The notes beneath the pieces were generated by a model. It was not told where the DNA came from. It saw only the letters and a program-made list of their open reading frames with translations, and searched no databases. A program made the position numbers and the translations under genes. Of a stretch of DNA of 64,000 nucleotides, positions 10,758 through 18,693 are shown one piece after another (position 1 is the stretch's first letter; every line of letters begins with the position of its first letter). Origin of the DNA: Candidatus Treponema merdequi. GTDB taxonomy: Bacteria; Spirochaetota; Spirochaetia; Treponematales; Treponemataceae. The stretch covers positions 1 to 64,000 of the forward strand of contig JAGHVB010000001.1 in NCBI GenBank assembly GCA_018064525.1, read 5' to 3'.

Positions 10758-10800
10758 AAAGCTATATTAACAGATTACAGCATTTTGGTAAATTGAAAAA

Positions 10801-10994
10801 TAAAAGTGTACGTTTATATTTCAATACCAAAAACTTACTTCCGGTCAGAAAGCTTAAGCCCGGCACCGCTAGCTAGCGTCGCTGGACATGAAAGTCGGCA
10901 AGGAAACTATCTTTCCGCCTTTCAAGTCCTGCCGGGCTTAAGTTTTCTTCCCTCTCGTAAGTTTTAGACATAAACTATAAACGTACGATTTTTA
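10801..10994 (+). repeat. Structured dispersed repeat, copy 1
   Basis: This is one of three ~190 bp copies. Nested stems are: GTACGTTTATA (10808-10818) with 10976-10986; AAACTTAC (10831-10838) with 10957-10964; a GC-richer stem 10848-10865 with 10930-10947 (one mismatch); and GGACATGAAAG (10884-10894) with 10919-10929. An exact 12-bp palindrome CGCTAGCTAGCG lies at 10867-10878. The core is far richer in GC than its surroundings. It lies between the divergent his fusion and the first double-glycine peptide gene. No further gene is seen in the 10758-11064 gap. Confidence 0.85.
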
Positions 10995-11016
10995 TTCAAT
11001 CTTTTTTAGCCTTTTT

Positions 11017-11045
11017 TTGTATATTGTCGTATAAATAAGTATAAT
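11017..11045 (+). promoter_or_regulatory. Promoter of double-glycine peptide gene 1
   Basis: TTGTAT, a 17-bp spacer and TATAAT precede CGGAGG and the ATG at 11065. Confidence 0.6.
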
Positions 11046-11064
11046 AACCTCGGAGGTACTTATT

Positions 11065-11382
11065 ATGAGCAAAGCAGAAAAAAATATAAACGCAGAAACA
11101 AACTTTTCTGCTGAACTTTTAAATGAAGATGAATTAAGTTTAATTTGCGGAGGAACAGATGATGCTCAAGCGGTCATTGATATGCTTGTTTCTGCAACAA
11201 AAGCTAAAGCGATAAATATTGATTGCTGCAAAAAATTACAGAAATTTTTTATATGTTCAATGGGCGCCAAATGTAATTTTGATAAACTTGTTCATGAAGC
11301 ACTTACAAGTAAAGTCATTTCAGGAGACGAATATCTTTGCGTGATAAATTTCTACAGAAAAAATAGAACAAATCTGGTTTAA
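11065..11382 (+). CDS. Double-glycine-leader peptide, paralogue 1
   Basis: This 105-residue product begins with a 30-residue leader ending LLNEDELSLICGG. It matches the bacteriocin-type double-glycine leader at every key position: L-12, E-8, L-7, I-4, G-2 and G-1. The remaining ~75 residues form a helical, polar core with an IDCC pair and further Cys residues. Leaders like this are normally cut and exported by a C39-peptidase ABC transporter, none of which is in the window. It is 127 bases upstream of a paralogue with near-identical ribosome-binding and leader DNA, a tandem duplication. It could be a bacteriocin, a signalling peptide or a RiPP precursor; no modification enzyme is adjacent. 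Confidence 0.7.
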   Translation: MSKAEKNINAETNFSAELLNEDELSLICGGTDDAQAVIDMLVSATKAKAINIDCCKKLQKFFICSMGAKCNFDKLVHEALTSKVISGDEYLCVINFYRKNRTNLV

Positions 11383-11460
11383 AAACAAATAAAACCGACG
11401 TTTCATAATTTTTCAGACTAAAAATAATATTACAAGACAATTTATATTTTTTTTGAATTA

Positions 11461-11489
11461 TTGAAGATATTTTTCAGATTAAATATAAT
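11461..11489 (+). promoter_or_regulatory. Promoter of double-glycine peptide gene 2
   Basis: TTGAAG, a 17-bp spacer and TATAAT lie just before AGGAGG and the ATG at 11509. The second peptide therefore has its own promoter. Confidence 0.7.
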
Positions 11490-11508
11490 TACTTAGGAGG
11501 CACTTATT

Positions 11509-11808
11509 ATGAGTAAAACAGAAAAAAATATAAACGCAGATCTTTCTGCAGGACTTTTAAATGACGCCGAATTAAATTTAATTTGCGGTGGAACAGAAGA
11601 AGGGAGTGTAGTTGTTGACCTTATTATGGCTGCAACAAGAGCCCATGCAATAAGCATTGACTGCTGTACAAGATTAGATAAATTTTATTTTTCAGTATTG
11701 GACAGCAAAGGTGATTTTGAACATCTTATTTTGCAGGCATATATAAAAGAAGTCATTACACAGGACGAATTTATTGCCGCAAAAAAGTACTACATCAAAA
11801 GAAAATAA
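11509..11808 (+). CDS. Double-glycine-leader peptide, paralogue 2
   Basis: This 99-residue paralogue of the preceding gene has a 28-residue leader ending LLNDAELNLICGG and a 71-residue core. The leader and its upstream DNA (AGGAGG, then ACTTATTATGAG) are close to identical to the first gene, while the core has diverged strongly. Only the helix pattern and the ISIDCC motif persist. Conserved leader with variable core is the usual pattern for double-glycine peptide families. It has its own promoter and is followed by a terminator. Confidence 0.7.
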   Translation: MSKTEKNINADLSAGLLNDAELNLICGGTEEGSVVVDLIMAATRAHAISIDCCTRLDKFYFSVLDSKGDFEHLILQAYIKEVITQDEFIAAKKYYIKRK

Positions 11809-11832
11809 TAAAGCAGATAATATTTTGATAAA

Positions 11833-11874
11833 AAAATCTTTCGTAAAATTATGATTTTGCGAAAGATTTTTTTT
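11833..11874 (+). terminator. Intrinsic terminator after the peptide pair
   Basis: AAATCTTTCGTAAAAT pairs with ATTTTGCGAAAGATTT (one G-T pair) and is followed by a run of T. Confidence 0.85.
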
Positions 11875-11906
11875 ATGTTTTTTTATCGTCGTAATTTCAA
11901 AACCGA

Positions 11907-11935
11907 TTGCAGGATAGTTCAAGTTAAAATATAAT
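11907..11935 (+). promoter_or_regulatory. Candidate promoter of the S41-like lipoprotein gene
   Basis: TTGCAG, a 17-bp spacer and TATAAT. A second TATAAT at 11958-11963 lies closer to the ATG but lacks a good -35. Confidence 0.5.
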
Positions 11936-11982
11936 TTTAATAGTTTTATACAATATGTATAATCATTCGGAGGAAGTTTTGT

Positions 11983-13779
11983 ATGAAAAGGAATCGACTT
12001 TTTTTTATTGCTGTATTTAGTTTATTGTTTTTTGCCTGCCAGAATCCGACAAGTTCGTCAAGTCCGTCACCGATTCCACAACCTCAGCCTGAACCAGAAA
12101 CTCTTTCGCTTATTCACGATTATTTTACAGAAATTAAATCAGTAAAAAAAGAAACGGTACCACTTTATTACGAGGATAAAAATATACAGGACACTCTGGA
12201 TTATTATTATGTGAATGATGAAAAATCCATTCCATATTTAAATGCCGAAGGAATTGTAAAATTACTGACAGGTTCTTTTTCTTACGGAACAGAGGGTTAT
12301 TCTCTTACAGTAAAAAAATTTGAAAAAGGTTTTTTACTGACACGCGAAAACGGTTCTTCTGCTTATTTTGATTCAACTGACAACACAATTACACTGGATG
12401 ATTTTCTTAACTTTATTATATTTCCTGGTGCAGAAAACGGATTAGATATTGTCGTTACAAATAATAAAGACGGGAAAAATCCGGACAAGACAATCCAGCA
12501 CGATTCATTATTTCACCGCAAAGGAAATCCCGTTCAGATTAATCTTTCTAAATACAAAATTAAATTTATCGTCAGTGATAACGAAATACTTTTACCGGCT
12601 CAGGTTGTTATTGATTTATTCAAATCTGCAAATGTAAATCCATTGTATAATGAAAACGCTTTCTTTTTTATTATTCCGACCAGTCTTAATAATAGTGAAG
12701 GAGAAGAACCAAAAGAAATCGTAAAAAAATTCCGCGATGTAACACCGGAAAAAAGAAGCGATGCATTAAAGCAGTTTACTTACAACGAACTTTGTCTTTC
12801 GCTTGATATAAATTACGGATTAAAAAAAGAACACAACATCGAATCTTTTGACAAGCTTTTTATTGATTCAGGTTTGTTTACTGATCTTTTTGACGATGAC
12901 GCAGCAAAAGTACATTCTGCACTTTTTAAACTGACCTTAAATTATTTTGCAGACAAGCATAGTGGAACAATCGCAACATCTCCAAAAGCGCTTTCAAAAT
13001 TTAAACCTGATTTTTCTGTGATGATAAATTTGCTTATTGAACAGACGCAATTAGTTAAAATGTATGGAATTACTCGCCAAAATTATTATCCGGATGGAAT
13101 TAAAGGCTACGAAGAAGTAGGTGATACTGCTTTTATTACATTTGACAGTTTTAAAATGCAGGATATTAATTATTATGAAGCACCGCTCACAAATACAACC
13201 GATGATACTTTAATTCTCATTATGTATGCAAACCAGCAGATTCGAAGAGAAAATTCTCCGATAAAAAAAGTTGTACTTGATTTGTCAAATAACTCTGGCG
13301 GCGAATGTGATACAGCAGTTGCAGTTGTTGCATGGATGACCGGCACTTGCAAACTGCATCTGACAAACGAACTTACAAATGAATCAGCTACTACTTTATA
13401 TACATTTGATGCAAACAGAGATCACGATTCAAAAACTGATTCTTTAGATCATAAAGATGATGTTGCTGATTTAAAATTATTCTGCTTAACAAGTCCTGTA
13501 AGTTTTTCATGTGGAAATCTTGTTCCAGCTTTTTTAAAAGAAAGCGATCAGGTTACACTTCTTGGAAGAACAAGCGGCGGTGGAACTTGTGCTGTAAATT
13601 TTATGTCAACCGCAGACGGAACTGTTTTTCAGATTTCAGGACACTATAAAATTTCTTTATTAAAAAATGGAACAGATTACGACATTGATCAGGGTGTAGT
13701 ACCACATTTATATATTTCTGATGTAAATCATTTTTACGACAGAACATGGCTTGCAAATTATCTGGATAATCTGCTGTAA
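11983..13779 (+). CDS. Lipoprotein with S41 (C-terminal processing) peptidase-like domain
   Basis: This 598-residue protein has a lipoprotein signal (lipobox LFFAC) and a Ser/Pro-rich stalk to about residue 45, so it is anchored at the cell surface or in the periplasm. The C-terminal third resembles the tail-specific protease fold: VVLDLSNNSGGE near 434, a Ser-rich candidate nucleophile loop SPVSFSCGNLVPAF near 507, then LLGRTSGGGT near 526. The usual catalytic Lys in the last motif appears to be Gly, so the mechanism may differ or activity may be lost. It follows the double-glycine peptides on the same strand, separated by a terminator; a functional link is inferred only from position. Confidence 0.7.
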   Translation: MKRNRLFFIAVFSLLFFACQNPTSSSSPSPIPQPQPEPETLSLIHDYFTEIKSVKKETVPLYYEDKNIQDTLDYYYVNDEKSIPYLNAEGIVKLLTGSFSYGTEGYSLTVKKFEKGFLLTRENGSSAYFDSTDNTITLDDFLNFIIFPGAENGLDIVVTNNKDGKNPDKTIQHDSLFHRKGNPVQINLSKYKIKFIVSDNEILLPAQVVIDLFKSANVNPLYNENAFFFIIPTSLNNSEGEEPKEIVKKFRDVTPEKRSDALKQFTYNELCLSLDINYGLKKEHNIESFDKLFIDSGLFTDLFDDDAAKVHSALFKLTLNYFADKHSGTIATSPKALSKFKPDFSVMINLLIEQTQLVKMYGITRQNYYPDGIKGYEEVGDTAFITFDSFKMQDINYYEAPLTNTTDDTLILIMYANQQIRRENSPIKKVVLDLSNNSGGECDTAVAVVAWMTGTCKLHLTNELTNESATTLYTFDANRDHDSKTDSLDHKDDVADLKLFCLTSPVSFSCGNLVPAFLKESDQVTLLGRTSGGGTCAVNFMSTADGTVFQISGHYKISLLKNGTDYDIDQGVVPHLYISDVNHFYDRTWLANYLDNLL

Positions 13780-13827
13780 TTCTGAAGGAATAATTTTATT
13801 CAAACCAAACTTTCTTAAAAACAAAAA

Positions 13828-13879
13828 ACGCCCGAGCAAGAACTCATTTTTTTGTGAGTCCCTGTCCGGGCGTAATTTT
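13828..13879. terminator. Bidirectional terminator between convergent genes
   Basis: ACGCCCG pairs with CGGGCGT around an inner ACTCA/TGAGT hairpin, with A-rich sequence on the left and T-rich on the right. It can serve both the lipoprotein gene and the symporter gene. Confidence 0.8.
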
Positions 13880-13922
13880 ACTGATGCACATAAATGAGCA
13901 CCGCGCTTTGACTTATTCAGCC

Positions 13923-15473
13923 TTATTCGTTTTCGTCTTCTACAAGTACCATGTCTTTTGTTACAGTAACTTTTTCACCGTAGCATGCAAACATTTTGTC
14001 GACATTTTCTTTTTTGAGTTTTGGAGTAATTAAGCTTACAAGTGGAACAATTATAAGACCGCCGACCATTGCAACAGCGCCGCAGTTAATCGGAGACTTG
14101 ATAAAGTGCATGAACATATTTACAACTGTAAGACCAACGCCCCATACAAAGTTAACCCAGACAGAAGCCTTTGTAACTTTTTTTGAGAAAAGTCCGTAAA
14201 GGAACGGTGCTAAGAATGAACCTGCAAGTGCGCCCCATGAGTAACCCATAAGCTGCGCGATAAATGTCGGCGGATTCAATGCAATCACAACAGAAATCAC
14301 GATAAAGAATACGATTAAAACGCGCATTACAAAAAGTGTTTTCTTTTCGCTTGATTTTTTCATGCATGTAAGTTTGAGCATATCAAGAGTTAAAGTTGAA
14401 CTTGAAGTTAAAACAAGTGACGAAAGTGTAGACATAGAAGCAGACAGAACAAGAACGACAACAACACCGATTAAAACATCAGGAAGAGTTGCAAGCATCT
14501 GTGGAACAATGCTGTCGTAAATAATTGAACCGTTTGCAGCGTGAATTGCAGGATTGTCAAACAATCGGCCAAAGCCACCAAGGAAGTAACATCCGCCTGC
14601 GATGATTACGGCAAAAACAGTAGAAACTACAGTTCCAGTTTTTACAGATTTTTCAGATTTGATTGAGTAGAATTTTCCGACCATCTGTGGAAGTCCCCAA
14701 GTTCCAAGTGAAGTAAGAATGATTACGCCAAGAAGATTTAACGGGTCTGGTCCAAAGAACGAAGCAAACATTCCGTTCATGTTTTTAAGTGGTTCAACTG
14801 CAACTGTCGGATCTGCCGGCACTTCTGAAAGCTTGTTGATTGCCGAAAGAAATCCGCCCTGTCCGTTCAATACCGCACCAATTACCGCAACGATTCCAAC
14901 AAGCATGATAATTCCCTGAATAAAGTCGTTGATTGCAGTTGCCATGTATCCGCCTAGAATTACATAAACTGCAGTAAGCAAAGCCATTGCAATTACACAA
15001 GTTGTATATGGAATATCAAACGCAAGACCAAAAAGTGTAGAAAGACCTTTGTACAAAGATGCAGTGTATGGAATCAAAAAAATGAATGCGATTGCAGCGG
15101 CTGCAATTCTTAAAGATTTACTTTCAAAACGTTTTCCAAAAAAATCAGGCATTGTCTTTGCATCAAGATAATGAGTCATGACACGAGTGCGGCGACCCAT
15201 TACAACCCAGGCAAGAAGCGAACCTAAGAATGCGTTTCCAAGACCAACCCAGGTCGAAGAAATTCCATATTTCCATCCGAACTGACCTGCATAACCAATA
15301 AATACTACGGCAGAAAAGTAAGATGTACCGTAAGCAAAAGCAGTAAGCCACGGACCAACACTTCGTCCGCCAAGAACAAAGCCGTTAACATCAGTTGCCT
15401 GCTTGCGGGAATAAATTCCAACCCCGATCATGATGGCAAAAAATACTACCAGCATCAAAATTTTAATAATCAT
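13923..15473 (-). CDS. Sodium:solute symporter (SSS family)
   Basis: This 516-residue membrane protein has about 13 hydrophobic helices. The N-terminal signature GRSVGPWLTAFAYGTSYFSA matches the Na+ site of the SSS/PutP family. The length fits, but the substrate (amino acid, sugar, sialic acid or other) cannot be read from sequence. GTGGAGG precedes the ATG. Expression probably depends on a ~190-nt leader containing a terminator hairpin about 30 bases upstream of the start. Confidence 0.85.
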   Translation of the reverse strand: MIIKILMLVVFFAIMIGVGIYSRKQATDVNGFVLGGRSVGPWLTAFAYGTSYFSAVVFIGYAGQFGWKYGISSTWVGLGNAFLGSLLAWVVMGRRTRVMTHYLDAKTMPDFFGKRFESKSLRIAAAAIAFIFLIPYTASLYKGLSTLFGLAFDIPYTTCVIAMALLTAVYVILGGYMATAINDFIQGIIMLVGIVAVIGAVLNGQGGFLSAINKLSEVPADPTVAVEPLKNMNGMFASFFGPDPLNLLGVIILTSLGTWGLPQMVGKFYSIKSEKSVKTGTVVSTVFAVIIAGGCYFLGGFGRLFDNPAIHAANGSIIYDSIVPQMLATLPDVLIGVVVVLVLSASMSTLSSLVLTSSSTLTLDMLKLTCMKKSSEKKTLFVMRVLIVFFIVISVVIALNPPTFIAQLMGYSWGALAGSFLAPFLYGLFSKKVTKASVWVNFVWGVGLTVVNMFMHFIKSPINCGAVAMVGGLIIVPLVSLITPKLKKENVDKMFACYGEKVTVTKDMVLVEDENE

Positions 15474-15506
15474 AATATTTTTCCTCCACGAAAAATAATT
15501 TTTATT

Positions 15507-15635
15507 AAAAAAAAGCCACCGCTTTTTTGCGATGGCTTATATTTTACAAAATAACAAATCTGACTGTTTTAGTTAAATTTGCAACAAGCCATCGACTGAG
15601 AATAATAATAGTAATAATAATAATTTGACTTGCTG
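15507..15635 (-). promoter_or_regulatory. Attenuator or riboswitch-like leader of the symporter gene
   Basis: Read on the minus strand, GCGATGGCTT's complement AAGCCATCGC (15538-15529) can pair with GCGGTGGCTT (15522-15513), followed by eight T: a complete intrinsic terminator before the symporter start. The same AAGCCATCG can instead pair perfectly with CGATGGCTT (15594-15586) upstream. A further helix, CAGCAAG (15635-15629) with CTTGTTG (15588-15582), overlaps that upstream arm. These mutually exclusive pairings are the logic of a transcription attenuator. The ligand or factor is unknown and I do not recognise a known riboswitch class. Confidence 0.6.
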
Positions 15636-15670
15636 TATTTCATATCTAACCTTAAAAATAGTTTTATATA

Positions 15671-15700
15671 ATATTAATTCACTTCTATTGATAGTGTCAA
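15671..15700 (-). promoter_or_regulatory. Promoter of the symporter leader
   Basis: On the minus strand TTGACA (15700-15695), an 18-bp spacer and TAATAT (15676-15671) place the transcript start near 15664. This gives a leader of about 190 nt. The -35 abuts the edge of repeat copy 2. Confidence 0.7.
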
Positions 15701-15903
15701 GTAAAATTGTACATTTATTTTTCAATCCCCAAAACTTACTTCCGGTCAGGAAGCAGAGCCCGGCACCGCTAGCTAGCGTCGCTGGACATGAAAGTCGGCA
15801 AGGAAACTATCTTTCCGCCTTTCAAGTCCTGCCGGTCTCTGCTTCCTTCCCTCTCGTAAGTTTTAGACATAAACTATAACTGTACAATTTTTATAGTGAA
15901 TTT
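15701..15903 (+). repeat. Structured dispersed repeat, copy 2
   Basis: The central ~75 bases are identical to copy 1. The surrounding stem differs in sequence (GGAAGCAGAG instead of GAAAGCTTAAG), but its partner has changed to match (CTCTGCTTCC). The outer inverted repeat is AAAATTGTACA (15703-15713) with TGTACAATTTT (15891-15901). It lies between the symporter promoter and the divergent nudC gene. Apart from this and the leader, nothing else is seen in the 15474-15961 gap. Confidence 0.85.
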
Positions 15904-15961
15904 TATCTAATTTGAAAAATTAATATTTTACGATTATAATTATTTTTTGTAGAGGAAAAAA

Positions 15962-16708
15962 ATGCCGGCAATAATTATTTCAGAAAAGGACATCATTTTA
16001 CGAAGCGACAATTCAGAAATTACTACGAGTGATCTTGAACAGATTAAAAACGAAAATCCTGTCGCTGAATATTTTGAAGAACCTCAGTTTAATTTAAAAG
16101 TACTTTCGCTTCTCTCGTTTGAAAGTTCATCTGATAAATACAAACGGATTCCTCTCCGCGAATTTTATTCAACTCATGACGAAGACGAAAACTTTTTCGC
16201 ATTCCGTGCAAAAGCACTTTTCGAGTGGAGAAAAAATACAAAATTCTGTTCCGCATGTGGAACAAAATTAAAACCGCATCCGGTTCAGACTGCGTTTGTC
16301 TGCCCTGACTGCGGCAAAATCTTTTTCCCGAAAATTGAACCATGCATCATCGTCCTCATTTCCAAAGACGAAAAAATTCTCCTTGCGCGCCACGTCAACC
16401 GCAATCAGGACATTTATGCATGTATCGCAGGTTTTATGGAAGCCGGCGAATCCGCAGAAGAAGCAGTCCGTCGTGAAATCCGCGAAGAAGTTGGTATTAC
16501 CGTAAAGAACATCGTTTACCGCGGAAGCCAGAGCTGGCCATTTCCCGACCAGCTGATGCTCGGTTTTACAGCCGACTACGAAAGCGGAGATTTAAAACTG
16601 CAGAAAGAAGAAATCGCCGACGCCCAATGGTTTGACCGCAACAATTGTCCTGCAAGTCCAAAGCCCGGCTCAATTGCGTATAATCTGATTCACAGAAACT
16701 GGAAATAA
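15962..16708 (+). CDS. nudC: NudC-type NAD(H) pyrophosphatase (Nudix)
   Basis: This 248-residue protein has a four-Cys zinc ribbon (CSACG and CPDCG, residues ~95-120), the Nudix box GFMEAGESAEEAVRREIREE near 158-177 and the NudC hallmark SQSWPFPDQLM. It hydrolyses NADH/NAD+ to NMNH/NMN and AMP, and in other bacteria removes NAD caps from RNA 5' ends. A TATAAT and GAGGAA precede the ATG. It converges on the chorismate mutase gene with only three bases between stops. Confidence 0.92.
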   Translation: MPAIIISEKDIILRSDNSEITTSDLEQIKNENPVAEYFEEPQFNLKVLSLLSFESSSDKYKRIPLREFYSTHDEDENFFAFRAKALFEWRKNTKFCSACGTKLKPHPVQTAFVCPDCGKIFFPKIEPCIIVLISKDEKILLARHVNRNQDIYACIAGFMEAGESAEEAVRREIREEVGITVKNIVYRGSQSWPFPDQLMLGFTADYESGDLKLQKEEIADAQWFDRNNCPASPKPGSIAYNLIHRNWK

Positions 16709-16711
16709 AAA

Positions 16712-16984
16712 TTATCCTTCAATAATTTTTTTCTGATATTCTTTTGAAACATCCATCATGCTCTGGATGAAATCTTTGAAGTATGGGGCGAGGTCTTTGT
16801 CTTTGAGAAGTTTAGTGGAATTTTCGATGACCTGTTTTTCGCGTTCAGAATCGAAAATCGGCATGTTGTTTTTTTTCTTGTAGTCGGCTACTTCGACAAC
16901 GAGTTTCATTCGTTCTTCAAATAAAGATGCGAGCTGGCTGTCGATTAAATTGATTTTCATTCGTGTATTTTCTAAATCTGTCAT
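16712..16984 (-). CDS. Chorismate mutase (AroQ type)
   Basis: This 90-residue all-helical protein matches a stand-alone AroQ chorismate mutase. The first helix has R8 and LIDSQLASLFEERM, the second helix VADYKKKNNMPIFDSEREKQV with the conserved Lys, Asp and Arg, and a C-terminal helix carries the late Gln region. It converts chorismate to prephenate for Phe/Tyr synthesis. The ATG follows GAGG. No other shikimate-pathway gene is adjacent. Confidence 0.88.
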   Translation of the reverse strand: MTDLENTRMKINLIDSQLASLFEERMKLVVEVADYKKKNNMPIFDSEREKQVIENSTKLLKDKDLAPYFKDFIQSMMDVSKEYQKKIIEG

Positions 16985-17039
16985 AGTTTTTACCTCAGAG
17001 ATAGTTTAGCAGAAGCGTCGTTGTGAGTAAAGAAAGCCC

Positions 17040-17058
17040 GTGGATTTTGAAGTGATGT
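17040..17058. repeat. 19-bp exact repeat, partner at 22002-22020
   Basis: GTGGATTTTGAAGTGATGT occurs here, just beyond the stop of the MATE gene, and again inside the DTW-protein gene. The match stops on both sides, so it is a short dispersed word rather than a gene duplication. Confidence 0.8.
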
Positions 17059-18410
17059 TATCTTGATTCTTTCGGAATCCACTTATTGCTTTTGTAGTAA
17101 ATGAAAAACAGGGTGCCGCTGATGAGCCATGAAATCGGATAGCAGGTGATGACTTTTATGAAGCTGTCTGTTCCGACGCATGTTGTGTAGAGCCAGATTA
17201 ATCTTGTTCCGCAGATGCCAAAGAAAGTGATGAACATTGAGATGTAAGTTTTTCCGACGCCGCCGACGATTCCGGCAAAGATTTCGTTTGGGACATATAG
17301 AAAGAATGCTGGTGTTAAGAACATGAGGATTTTCATTCCCATATCGATGACTTCTGTTTCGCCAGGGATGAACCAGCCGTAGAATGTTCTTCCGAAGAGA
17401 CGGAAAGTCAAAACGATGACTGCGGTGATTGAGTACATGATGATGATTGCCTGGATCGGACTTTTTTTGATGCGGTCATATTTTTTTGCACCAAAGTTCT
17501 GGCCGGCGAATGTGTTGAGTGACATTCCGAGTGAAGAAACTGACATCCAGAAAAGTGCATCGAGTTTTCCCCACGCTGTCCAGGCGGCAATCGTTGTCGT
17601 TGAAAATGAGTTTACGAAAGTCATCATTATAAGATTTGAAATCGTGTACATCGTCGAGTATAAGCCGGATGGAATTCCGAGGGTGATCATCTTTTTCAAA
17701 AGAGATGGTTCGACTCTGATTTTTGAAAATTCAATTTTGTAAATTCCACTTGTATGCATCAGAGGAATGAAAATCAAAATCATGCTCACGACTTGAGAAA
17801 TAACTGTCGCATACGCAACGCCAGAAACTCCCATCTTGAAAACTGCGACAAAAAGACAGTCGAGAATAATGTTTACAAAACACGCAATGACAAGAACAAA
17901 AAACGGCGTCTTTGAATCTCCGACAGCGCGCAAAATTCCAGCTCCTGTGTTGTATAAAAACATCGGAACGATTCCGATGAAAAAAATCTTCAGATAAGTA
18001 ACTGCGTTGTCAAAAATATCGGAAGGCGTTTTTATAAGTTCCATTGCAAACTCAGAAAACAAGAGCCCAAGAATCGTAACGATAATTCCCATCACCAGCG
18101 AGAGAACGACATAAGTGTGAACAGCCTGCGAAACTTTGTGATCATTTTTCGCACCAAAGAACTGTGAAATGATAATCGAAGCACCTGTTGCAAGTCCGCC
18201 GCAAAATCCGATCAAAAGATTGATGAAGAAACCAGTTCCGCCACCGACAGCAGCAAGAGCTTCTTTTCCGACAAAACGGCCGACAACAATTGCGTCGACA
18301 GTGTTATAAAGCTGCTGAAAAAACATTCCGAGCATAATCGGCAGAGTGAACGAGAGAATACTTTTCCAGATTGGTCCTTCTGTAATTGAAACAGATTTCG
18401 TTTTAAACAT
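17058..18410 (-). CDS. MATE-family multidrug/metabolite exporter
   Basis: This 450-residue inner-membrane protein has 12 hydrophobic helices. MATE signatures are visible in both halves: an N-terminal region with LPIMLGMFFQQLYNTVDAIV and VGKEALAAVGGG, and the second-half equivalent around ISNLIMMTFVNSF. It probably exports drugs or metabolites in exchange for Na+ or H+. It is a single gene divergent from tRNA-Cys; repeat copy 3 lies upstream of its start. Confidence 0.9.
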   Translation of the reverse strand: MFKTKSVSITEGPIWKSILSFTLPIMLGMFFQQLYNTVDAIVVGRFVGKEALAAVGGGTGFFINLLIGFCGGLATGASIIISQFFGAKNDHKVSQAVHTYVVLSLVMGIIVTILGLLFSEFAMELIKTPSDIFDNAVTYLKIFFIGIVPMFLYNTGAGILRAVGDSKTPFFVLVIACFVNIILDCLFVAVFKMGVSGVAYATVISQVVSMILIFIPLMHTSGIYKIEFSKIRVEPSLLKKMITLGIPSGLYSTMYTISNLIMMTFVNSFSTTTIAAWTAWGKLDALFWMSVSSLGMSLNTFAGQNFGAKKYDRIKKSPIQAIIIMYSITAVIVLTFRLFGRTFYGWFIPGETEVIDMGMKILMFLTPAFFLYVPNEIFAGIVGGVGKTYISMFITFFGICGTRLIWLYTTCVGTDSFIKVITCYPISWLISGTLFFIYYKSNKWIPKESR

Positions 18411-18447
18411 AATTCCACAATATCGTTTTTGCAGAAAATAGTCATTA

Positions 18448-18635
18448 AATTATATGTTTATATTTCAATTTCCAAAAACTTACTTCCGGTCAGAAAGCAG
18501 AGTCCGGCACCGCTAGCTAGCGTCGCTGGACATGAAAGTCGGCAAGGTAACTATCTTTCCGCCTTTCAAGTCCTGCCGGCCTCTGCTTTCTTCCCTCTCG
18601 TAAGTTTTTAGAAATATAAATATAAACATATAATT
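18448..18635 (+). repeat. Structured dispersed repeat, copy 3
   Basis: It has the same core as the other copies with two single-base changes. The outer stem is an exact 18-bp inverted repeat, AATTATATGTTTATATTT (18448-18465) with 18618-18635, different in sequence from the outer stems of copies 1 and 2. The inner stem is AGAAAGCAGAG with CTCTGCTTTCT. It lies between the divergent MATE gene and tRNA-Cys. Nothing else is seen in the 18411-18693 gap. Confidence 0.85.
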
Positions 18636-18693
18636 AATTACGATATATACTATAGACAAGAACGGTATTTTTTGATATATATAACAATACAAC

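Follow-up and report, generated by a model that had tools for sequence, protein, structure and literature searches.

The DNA analysed here, a window of 64,000 nucleotides at the start of contig JAGHVB010000001.1 of Candidatus Treponema merdequi, carries three copies of a repeat of 191-194 bp, all on the + strand (Table 1). The first-pass annotation had recognised the three repeats and their shared orientation, and both observations stand, although its end for copy 2 (15903) overshoots the unit by 10 bp (15893). Within each unit lies a core of 134-136 nt that scores 152-154 bits (E ~1e-39) against a covariance model built from 22 copies, the core identities being 128/138, 128/138 and 129/134 (93-96%). 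The units begin with TA(A)AA... and finish with ...TTTTA or ...TTA, so that TA stands at either end, and the inverted ends of this window subfamily are of the TAAAAnYGTACG type, comprising TA plus CGTACG-like repeats. The terminal TA hints, if weakly, at duplication of a TA target. As had been described, the outer stem differs between copies with matching changes in the partner strand, being GTACGTTTATA/TATAAACGTAC in copy 1, AAAATTGTACA/TGTACAATTTT in copy 2 and 18 bp of AATTATATGTTTATATTT in copy 3; the reported switch of the middle stem from GCTTAAG to GCAGAG, with its complement changing along, is likewise present. The right-hand neighbour of copy 3 is tRNA-Cys.

Table 1. Repeat units and their internal features in the window
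Feature	Coordinates	Strand	Evidence and remarks
Copy 1, whole unit, 194 bp	10801..10994	+	Start TAAAAGTGTACG, end CGTACGATTTTTA; TA...TA; suggestive of a TA target duplication
Copy 1, structured core, conserved	10830..10965	+	CM R1, 152.4 bits
Copy 2, whole unit, 192 bp	15702..15893	+	Start TAAAATTGTACA, end TGTACAATTTTTA; TA...TA
Copy 2, structured core, conserved	15731..15864	+	CM R1, 154.0 bits; DNA fold z -9.7 / -13.2
Copy 2, internal-loop motif TTCCGGTCA, 5' strand, conserved	15740..15748	+	Alignments and column conservation
Copy 2, small hairpin P3, CGCTAGCTAGCG	15767..15778	+	Fold and consensus
Copy 2, P4 apical loop GAAACTAT, conserved	15803..15810	+	Kept across subfamilies
Copy 2, internal-loop motif TTCCCTCTCG, 3' strand, conserved	15847..15856	+	Alignments
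Copy 3, whole unit, 191 bp	18446..18636	+	TA...TA; orthologous copy is L106 in G007
Copy 3, structured core, conserved	18475..18608	+	CM R1, 152.6 bits

Copies 1 and 2 bracket a stretch with features of its own. The segment at ~10760-16710, comprising both copies and the intervening genes, has ~580 unrelated bases at its counterpart in Candidatus Treponema scatequi (G007). Two related small proteins are encoded on the + strand at 11065-11382 and 11509-11808, with double-glycine-type leaders (LSLICGG and LNLICGG) and no Pfam match for either, and an S41 peptidase gene lies downstream of both (11983-13779). These genes, which fall between the two copies, look like a small peptide/bacteriocin-type locus.

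The core folds into a three-way junction, in which P1 (AAAACTTAC/GTAAGTTTT) is separated by an internal loop (TTCCGGTCA/TTCCCTCTCG) from the variable P2; the structure is completed by a small hairpin, P3, and by P4, a long arm with GAAACTAT at its apex. Folding of copy 2 gives z scores of -9.7 and -13.2 for its DNA strands and -10.7 for the RNA, and none of 200 shuffled sequences folded equally well. The P3 stem is compensated in other subfamilies, where it reads GCGAA/TTCGC, GCGCA/TGCGC or GCACA/TGTGC.

Searching spirochaete genomes with the covariance model revealed a family of such elements. The host genome (G000) holds 10 copies and at least 74 of the 196 Treponema genomes contain the core, more thorough scoring yielding more copies per genome than the first model scan; inverted pairs and tandem arrangements also occur. 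Across the phylum (296 genomes in 138 genera) matches were confined to Treponema, and an exact-pattern scan of 84,980 GTDB species returned 72 stretches from gut MAGs, every one bearing a Treponema, Treponemataceae or Spirochaetaceae/Spirochaetales title, and many of them of horse faeces, rumen or cattle origin. The family is thus restricted to gut/rumen Treponema, and was previously unnamed. Collections of phages, plasmids and viral contigs gave zero matches, and an origin from these sources was rejected accordingly. Beyond close relatives, the divergence between copies exceeds the reach of blastn, which indicates that conservation resides mainly in the fold and in short motifs.

Around this core, the ends of the elements differ between subfamilies. 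One shell, S1, forms units of ~215 bp with ends CAGGGCTTCCGCATTATAAA (G116, G010 and G144), and 10-bp direct repeats matching at nine or more positions flank 11 of 26 units, as against a mean of 0.44 and a maximum of 2 in shuffled data; no other repeat length stands out among these 26 units. A second, S2, forms units of 263 bp with ends GTTCGAATTTCG/GCCCGAAATTCG (G159 and G144) and, at each of the five sites that are clearly independent, is flanked by direct repeats of 6 bp. One core is therefore carried within transposon ends of at least two unrelated kinds. Among insertion sequences, unequal lengths of target duplication reflect different transposases; hence the 10-bp and 6-bp duplications suggest that transposases of at least two types have been at work. 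The family also has several of the attributes by which miniature inverted-repeat transposable elements (MITEs) are recognised: its units are short (191-194, 215 and 263 bp, all below 500 bp) and non-coding, terminal inverted repeats are found in S1, S2 and the window ends, and target sites are duplicated in S1 (10 bp) and S2 (6 bp), with TA alone in the window subfamily.

Several units have undergone rearrangements of their own. Three short S1 units of 106-121 bp (L423, L424 and L425) retain their ends, with most of the core gone, and two of them keep 10-bp target duplications; such shells were considered as intact, core-less empty targets and rejected, the short ones being internal deletions. 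The sole long S1 unit (L422, 1068-2724 in G116:C13) was similarly rejected as an autonomous element, as it contains a nested IS3-type insertion sequence, with two ORFs and a DDE integrase-like product, inside the P3 hairpin. In a further core (L091, 3009-3232 in G159:C17) the P4 loop contains an insert of ~88 bp (GGGCTGTCCCAAAAGTAATGAG ... TTATTGGACAGCC), which is another small mobile repeat.

The paired substitutions first noticed in the window recur throughout the family. Their absence from other copies, or an Rfam match, would have told against the first-pass annotation, and neither was seen. In 85 distinct copies, 95.2% of cells are paired, compared with 72.5% after shuffling; double changes occur at 32 of 38 pairs, and the covariation score stands at 0.585, compared with 0.177 for shuffled alignments, none of 500 shuffles reaching the observed value. 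The 22-copy set agrees, and the signal is lost when the partner is slid by one base. Most pairs vary on both sides, amounting to hundreds of paired base changes across the core, although the copies compared are related and the counts given here and below are not of independent events. Thus, paired change in the core is real. The share of two-sided changes rises from 0 of 27 below 3% divergence to ~0.85 at 40-60% divergence, which implies that compensation is gradual. The outer stem P1 is free to vary (ACTTAC, AATAC, ATGC, ACAGAC), and in G163 the outer arms vary among copies, an arm often pairing better with its own partner than with arms from other copies. L106, the G007 orthologue of copy 3, also has a compensatory substitution in its outer stem.

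The chemistry of the imperfect pairs bears on the level at which this pairing is maintained. Transitions yield G·T and A·C at equal rates, and RNA under selection retains the former and drops the latter. Among 5258 cells from 140 distinct copies, G·T accounts for 1.33% (70) and A·C for 1.16% (61), so that the core does not display the tolerance of G-U over A-C that is characteristic of structured RNA; in tRNAs from the same fetched DNA the corresponding values are 8.3% (36) for G·U and 0% (0) for A·C, of 434 cells. The near-equality in the core argues that its pairing has not been filtered as RNA.

Comparison between genomes provides further indications of mobility. At one locus common to G029 and G079 the core lies in opposite orientations, being 128/136 identical when compared in the same sense, while the flanks are collinear at ~93% and 81% identity. 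This probably represents inversion of the core in place, although it might reflect two independent insertions at one spot. G007 is without the copy found at a site in the host genome (G000:C10) and its flanking genes are recognisable, but the spacer is too diverged for an exact junction. No clean unoccupied junction was found elsewhere, a search centred on G163 giving relatives that were too distant.

Taken together, we consider it reasonably likely that these repeats represent a MITE-like, non-autonomous kind of mobile element in gut Treponema, in which a folded core of ~135 nt resides within an inverted-repeat shell and pairing is at the DNA level. Of the two possibilities that the first-pass annotation had offered, a mobile element or a structured RNA, the former is supported by the multiplicity of copies, the target duplications of sister subfamilies, presence and absence between species and bursts within lineages; the latter is not favoured. 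The shells would be moved by transposases of at least two types supplied in trans, and the fold would exist as DNA, in the form of a hairpin or cruciform. During replication, template switching from one arm to the other could then restore complementarity and occasionally flip the spacer. Homogenisation of the arms and inversion of the spacer are both established outcomes of template switching at inverted repeats (PMC8604942). The process can also preserve hairpins, with compensatory changes and inverted loops among its products (PMC8794818). The lack of G-T preference and the one in-place inversion accord well with the earlier proposal that the repeats are copied through a folded form. We suggest that DNA-level pairing is probably upheld by template switching together with selection. 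Covariation is routinely read as proof of a functional RNA, whereas the G·T/A·C balance in this family points to maintenance at the DNA level. The family is hence well suited to testing whether template switching gives rise to false RNA families, and how such signals are best screened.

Template switching does not account for every conserved feature. The unpaired motifs YCCRGTCA, GTCGCT, GAAACTAT and TTCCYTCSCG are near-constant while the stems are saturated, and neither a MITE moved by its ends nor passive template switching needs conserved unpaired motifs; the core itself therefore probably serves some function, whether in the form of folded DNA or of RNA. Selection on the core might act through recognition of these motifs, independently of the transposase, which would keep them constant as the stems drift to saturation. 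It is tempting to speculate, albeit tentatively, that the core is a folded passenger module, a three-way junction of DNA or RNA with a transposase-independent function, which MITEs belonging to different transposase families have captured and within which it spreads through one bacterial genus. The occurrence of one fold in mobile shells of different duplication lengths raises the question of its use to its carriers.

A rival reading, which we regard as rather unlikely, sees in the core a structured RNA with a function in trans or within mRNAs, which is spread by transposition and whose G-U signature is masked by template switching of the DNA. The conserved apical and internal-loop motifs and the covarying helices do resemble those of an RNA family, and the predicted RNA fold is good (z -10.7). 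Against this, G-T is no commoner than A-C, there is no strand bias relative to genes (24 vs 24, 28 vs 27), the number of copies varies from few to many, none of the neighbouring genes seen is conserved, and the element matches no Rfam family.

Less probable still is a cis-acting terminator or regulatory insert. P1 usually starts in A-runs and finishes in T-runs on both strands, which would suit a bidirectional terminator of A-run, hairpin and T-run, and the insertions are intergenic in the cases examined. However, a terminator would not require conserved loops, and convergent gaps are not enriched: at 135 sites the neighbouring genes are convergent in 28 cases, divergent in 27 and codirectional in 48, with an even split by element strand. 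The location in gaps between divergent genes, noted earlier as a property of the repeats, holds for the three window copies but is not typical of the family. A GC-skew bias of element orientation was also lacking (43 vs 53), and orientation bias with respect to genes or replication was thus set aside.

Mobility of the REP/REPIN kind, in which a Y1 (RAYT) transposase acts on single-stranded DNA, is highly improbable, for although it would be in keeping with the hairpin form, the inverted pairs of cores and the RAYT-sized Y1 genes of G000, G079, G010, G103, G105 and others, none of 20 fetched Y1-transposase loci contains a core, the carrier G007 has no Y1 match, and target duplications of 10 bp and 6 bp point to DDE-type cut-and-paste ends. 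Y1/RAYT was rejected as a partner given this lack of linkage to cores. The host genome itself encodes a RAYT-sized Y1 transposase of 254 aa (L224, G000:C62:28688-29020), with no adjoining element copy. PF01609 (DDE_Tnp_1) is absent from 7 of 10 tested carriers (including G000, G116 and G010), and was dismissed as the S1 partner, being absent in G116 and G010. Neither the Y1 loci, PF01609 nor the long S1 unit thus disclosed a partner transposase.

The preferred reading, that of a MITE-like mobile element, can be set against several known systems. Some Treponema carry integrons with attC sites. Like attC, the element is an imperfect palindrome kept as a fold rather than as a sequence; unlike attC, whose outer stem carries R'/R'' boxes (GTTRRRY/RYYYAAC), it seems not to keep the R-box consensus in its variable P1, and its core motifs lie in inner loops. 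It shares with REP/REPIN sequences and their RAYTs a palindromic, multi-copy nature and occasional inverted pairs, but it is ~5x longer than REPs, which measure 20-40 bp (PMC3733652), has target duplications and was found without a RAYT neighbour. Covarying helices in intergenic DNA recall structured RNAs in Rfam such as Treponema TD-1, yet the element matches none of 4227 families, at either gathering or lax thresholds, and is undescribed there. The sole TD-1-like match (L199, 462-568, - strand; 48.8 bits against a curated 64.5) lies upstream of a gene and next to a copy of the element; it is a separate neighbour, and TD-1 similarity of the element was rejected. The closest comparison is with bacterial MITEs (reviewed in PMC10969869), among them QMITE, Chunjie, Correia/NEMIS and pneumococcal RUP/BOX (PMC3049150), which the element resembles in its length below 500 bp, lack of coding sequence, inverted-repeat ends, intergenic location, strong hairpin and lineage bursts, and, in its sister subfamilies, in target duplications. 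It differs from them in that one core, which is not AT-rich, occupies at least two shells with different target-duplication lengths, and in helix-by-helix covariation across species. We thus describe a new family of mobile hairpin elements, MITE-like and restricted to one genus, that is unusual in that its RNA-like covariation behaves as pairing of DNA and in that it is the folded interior, rather than the ends, that is conserved.
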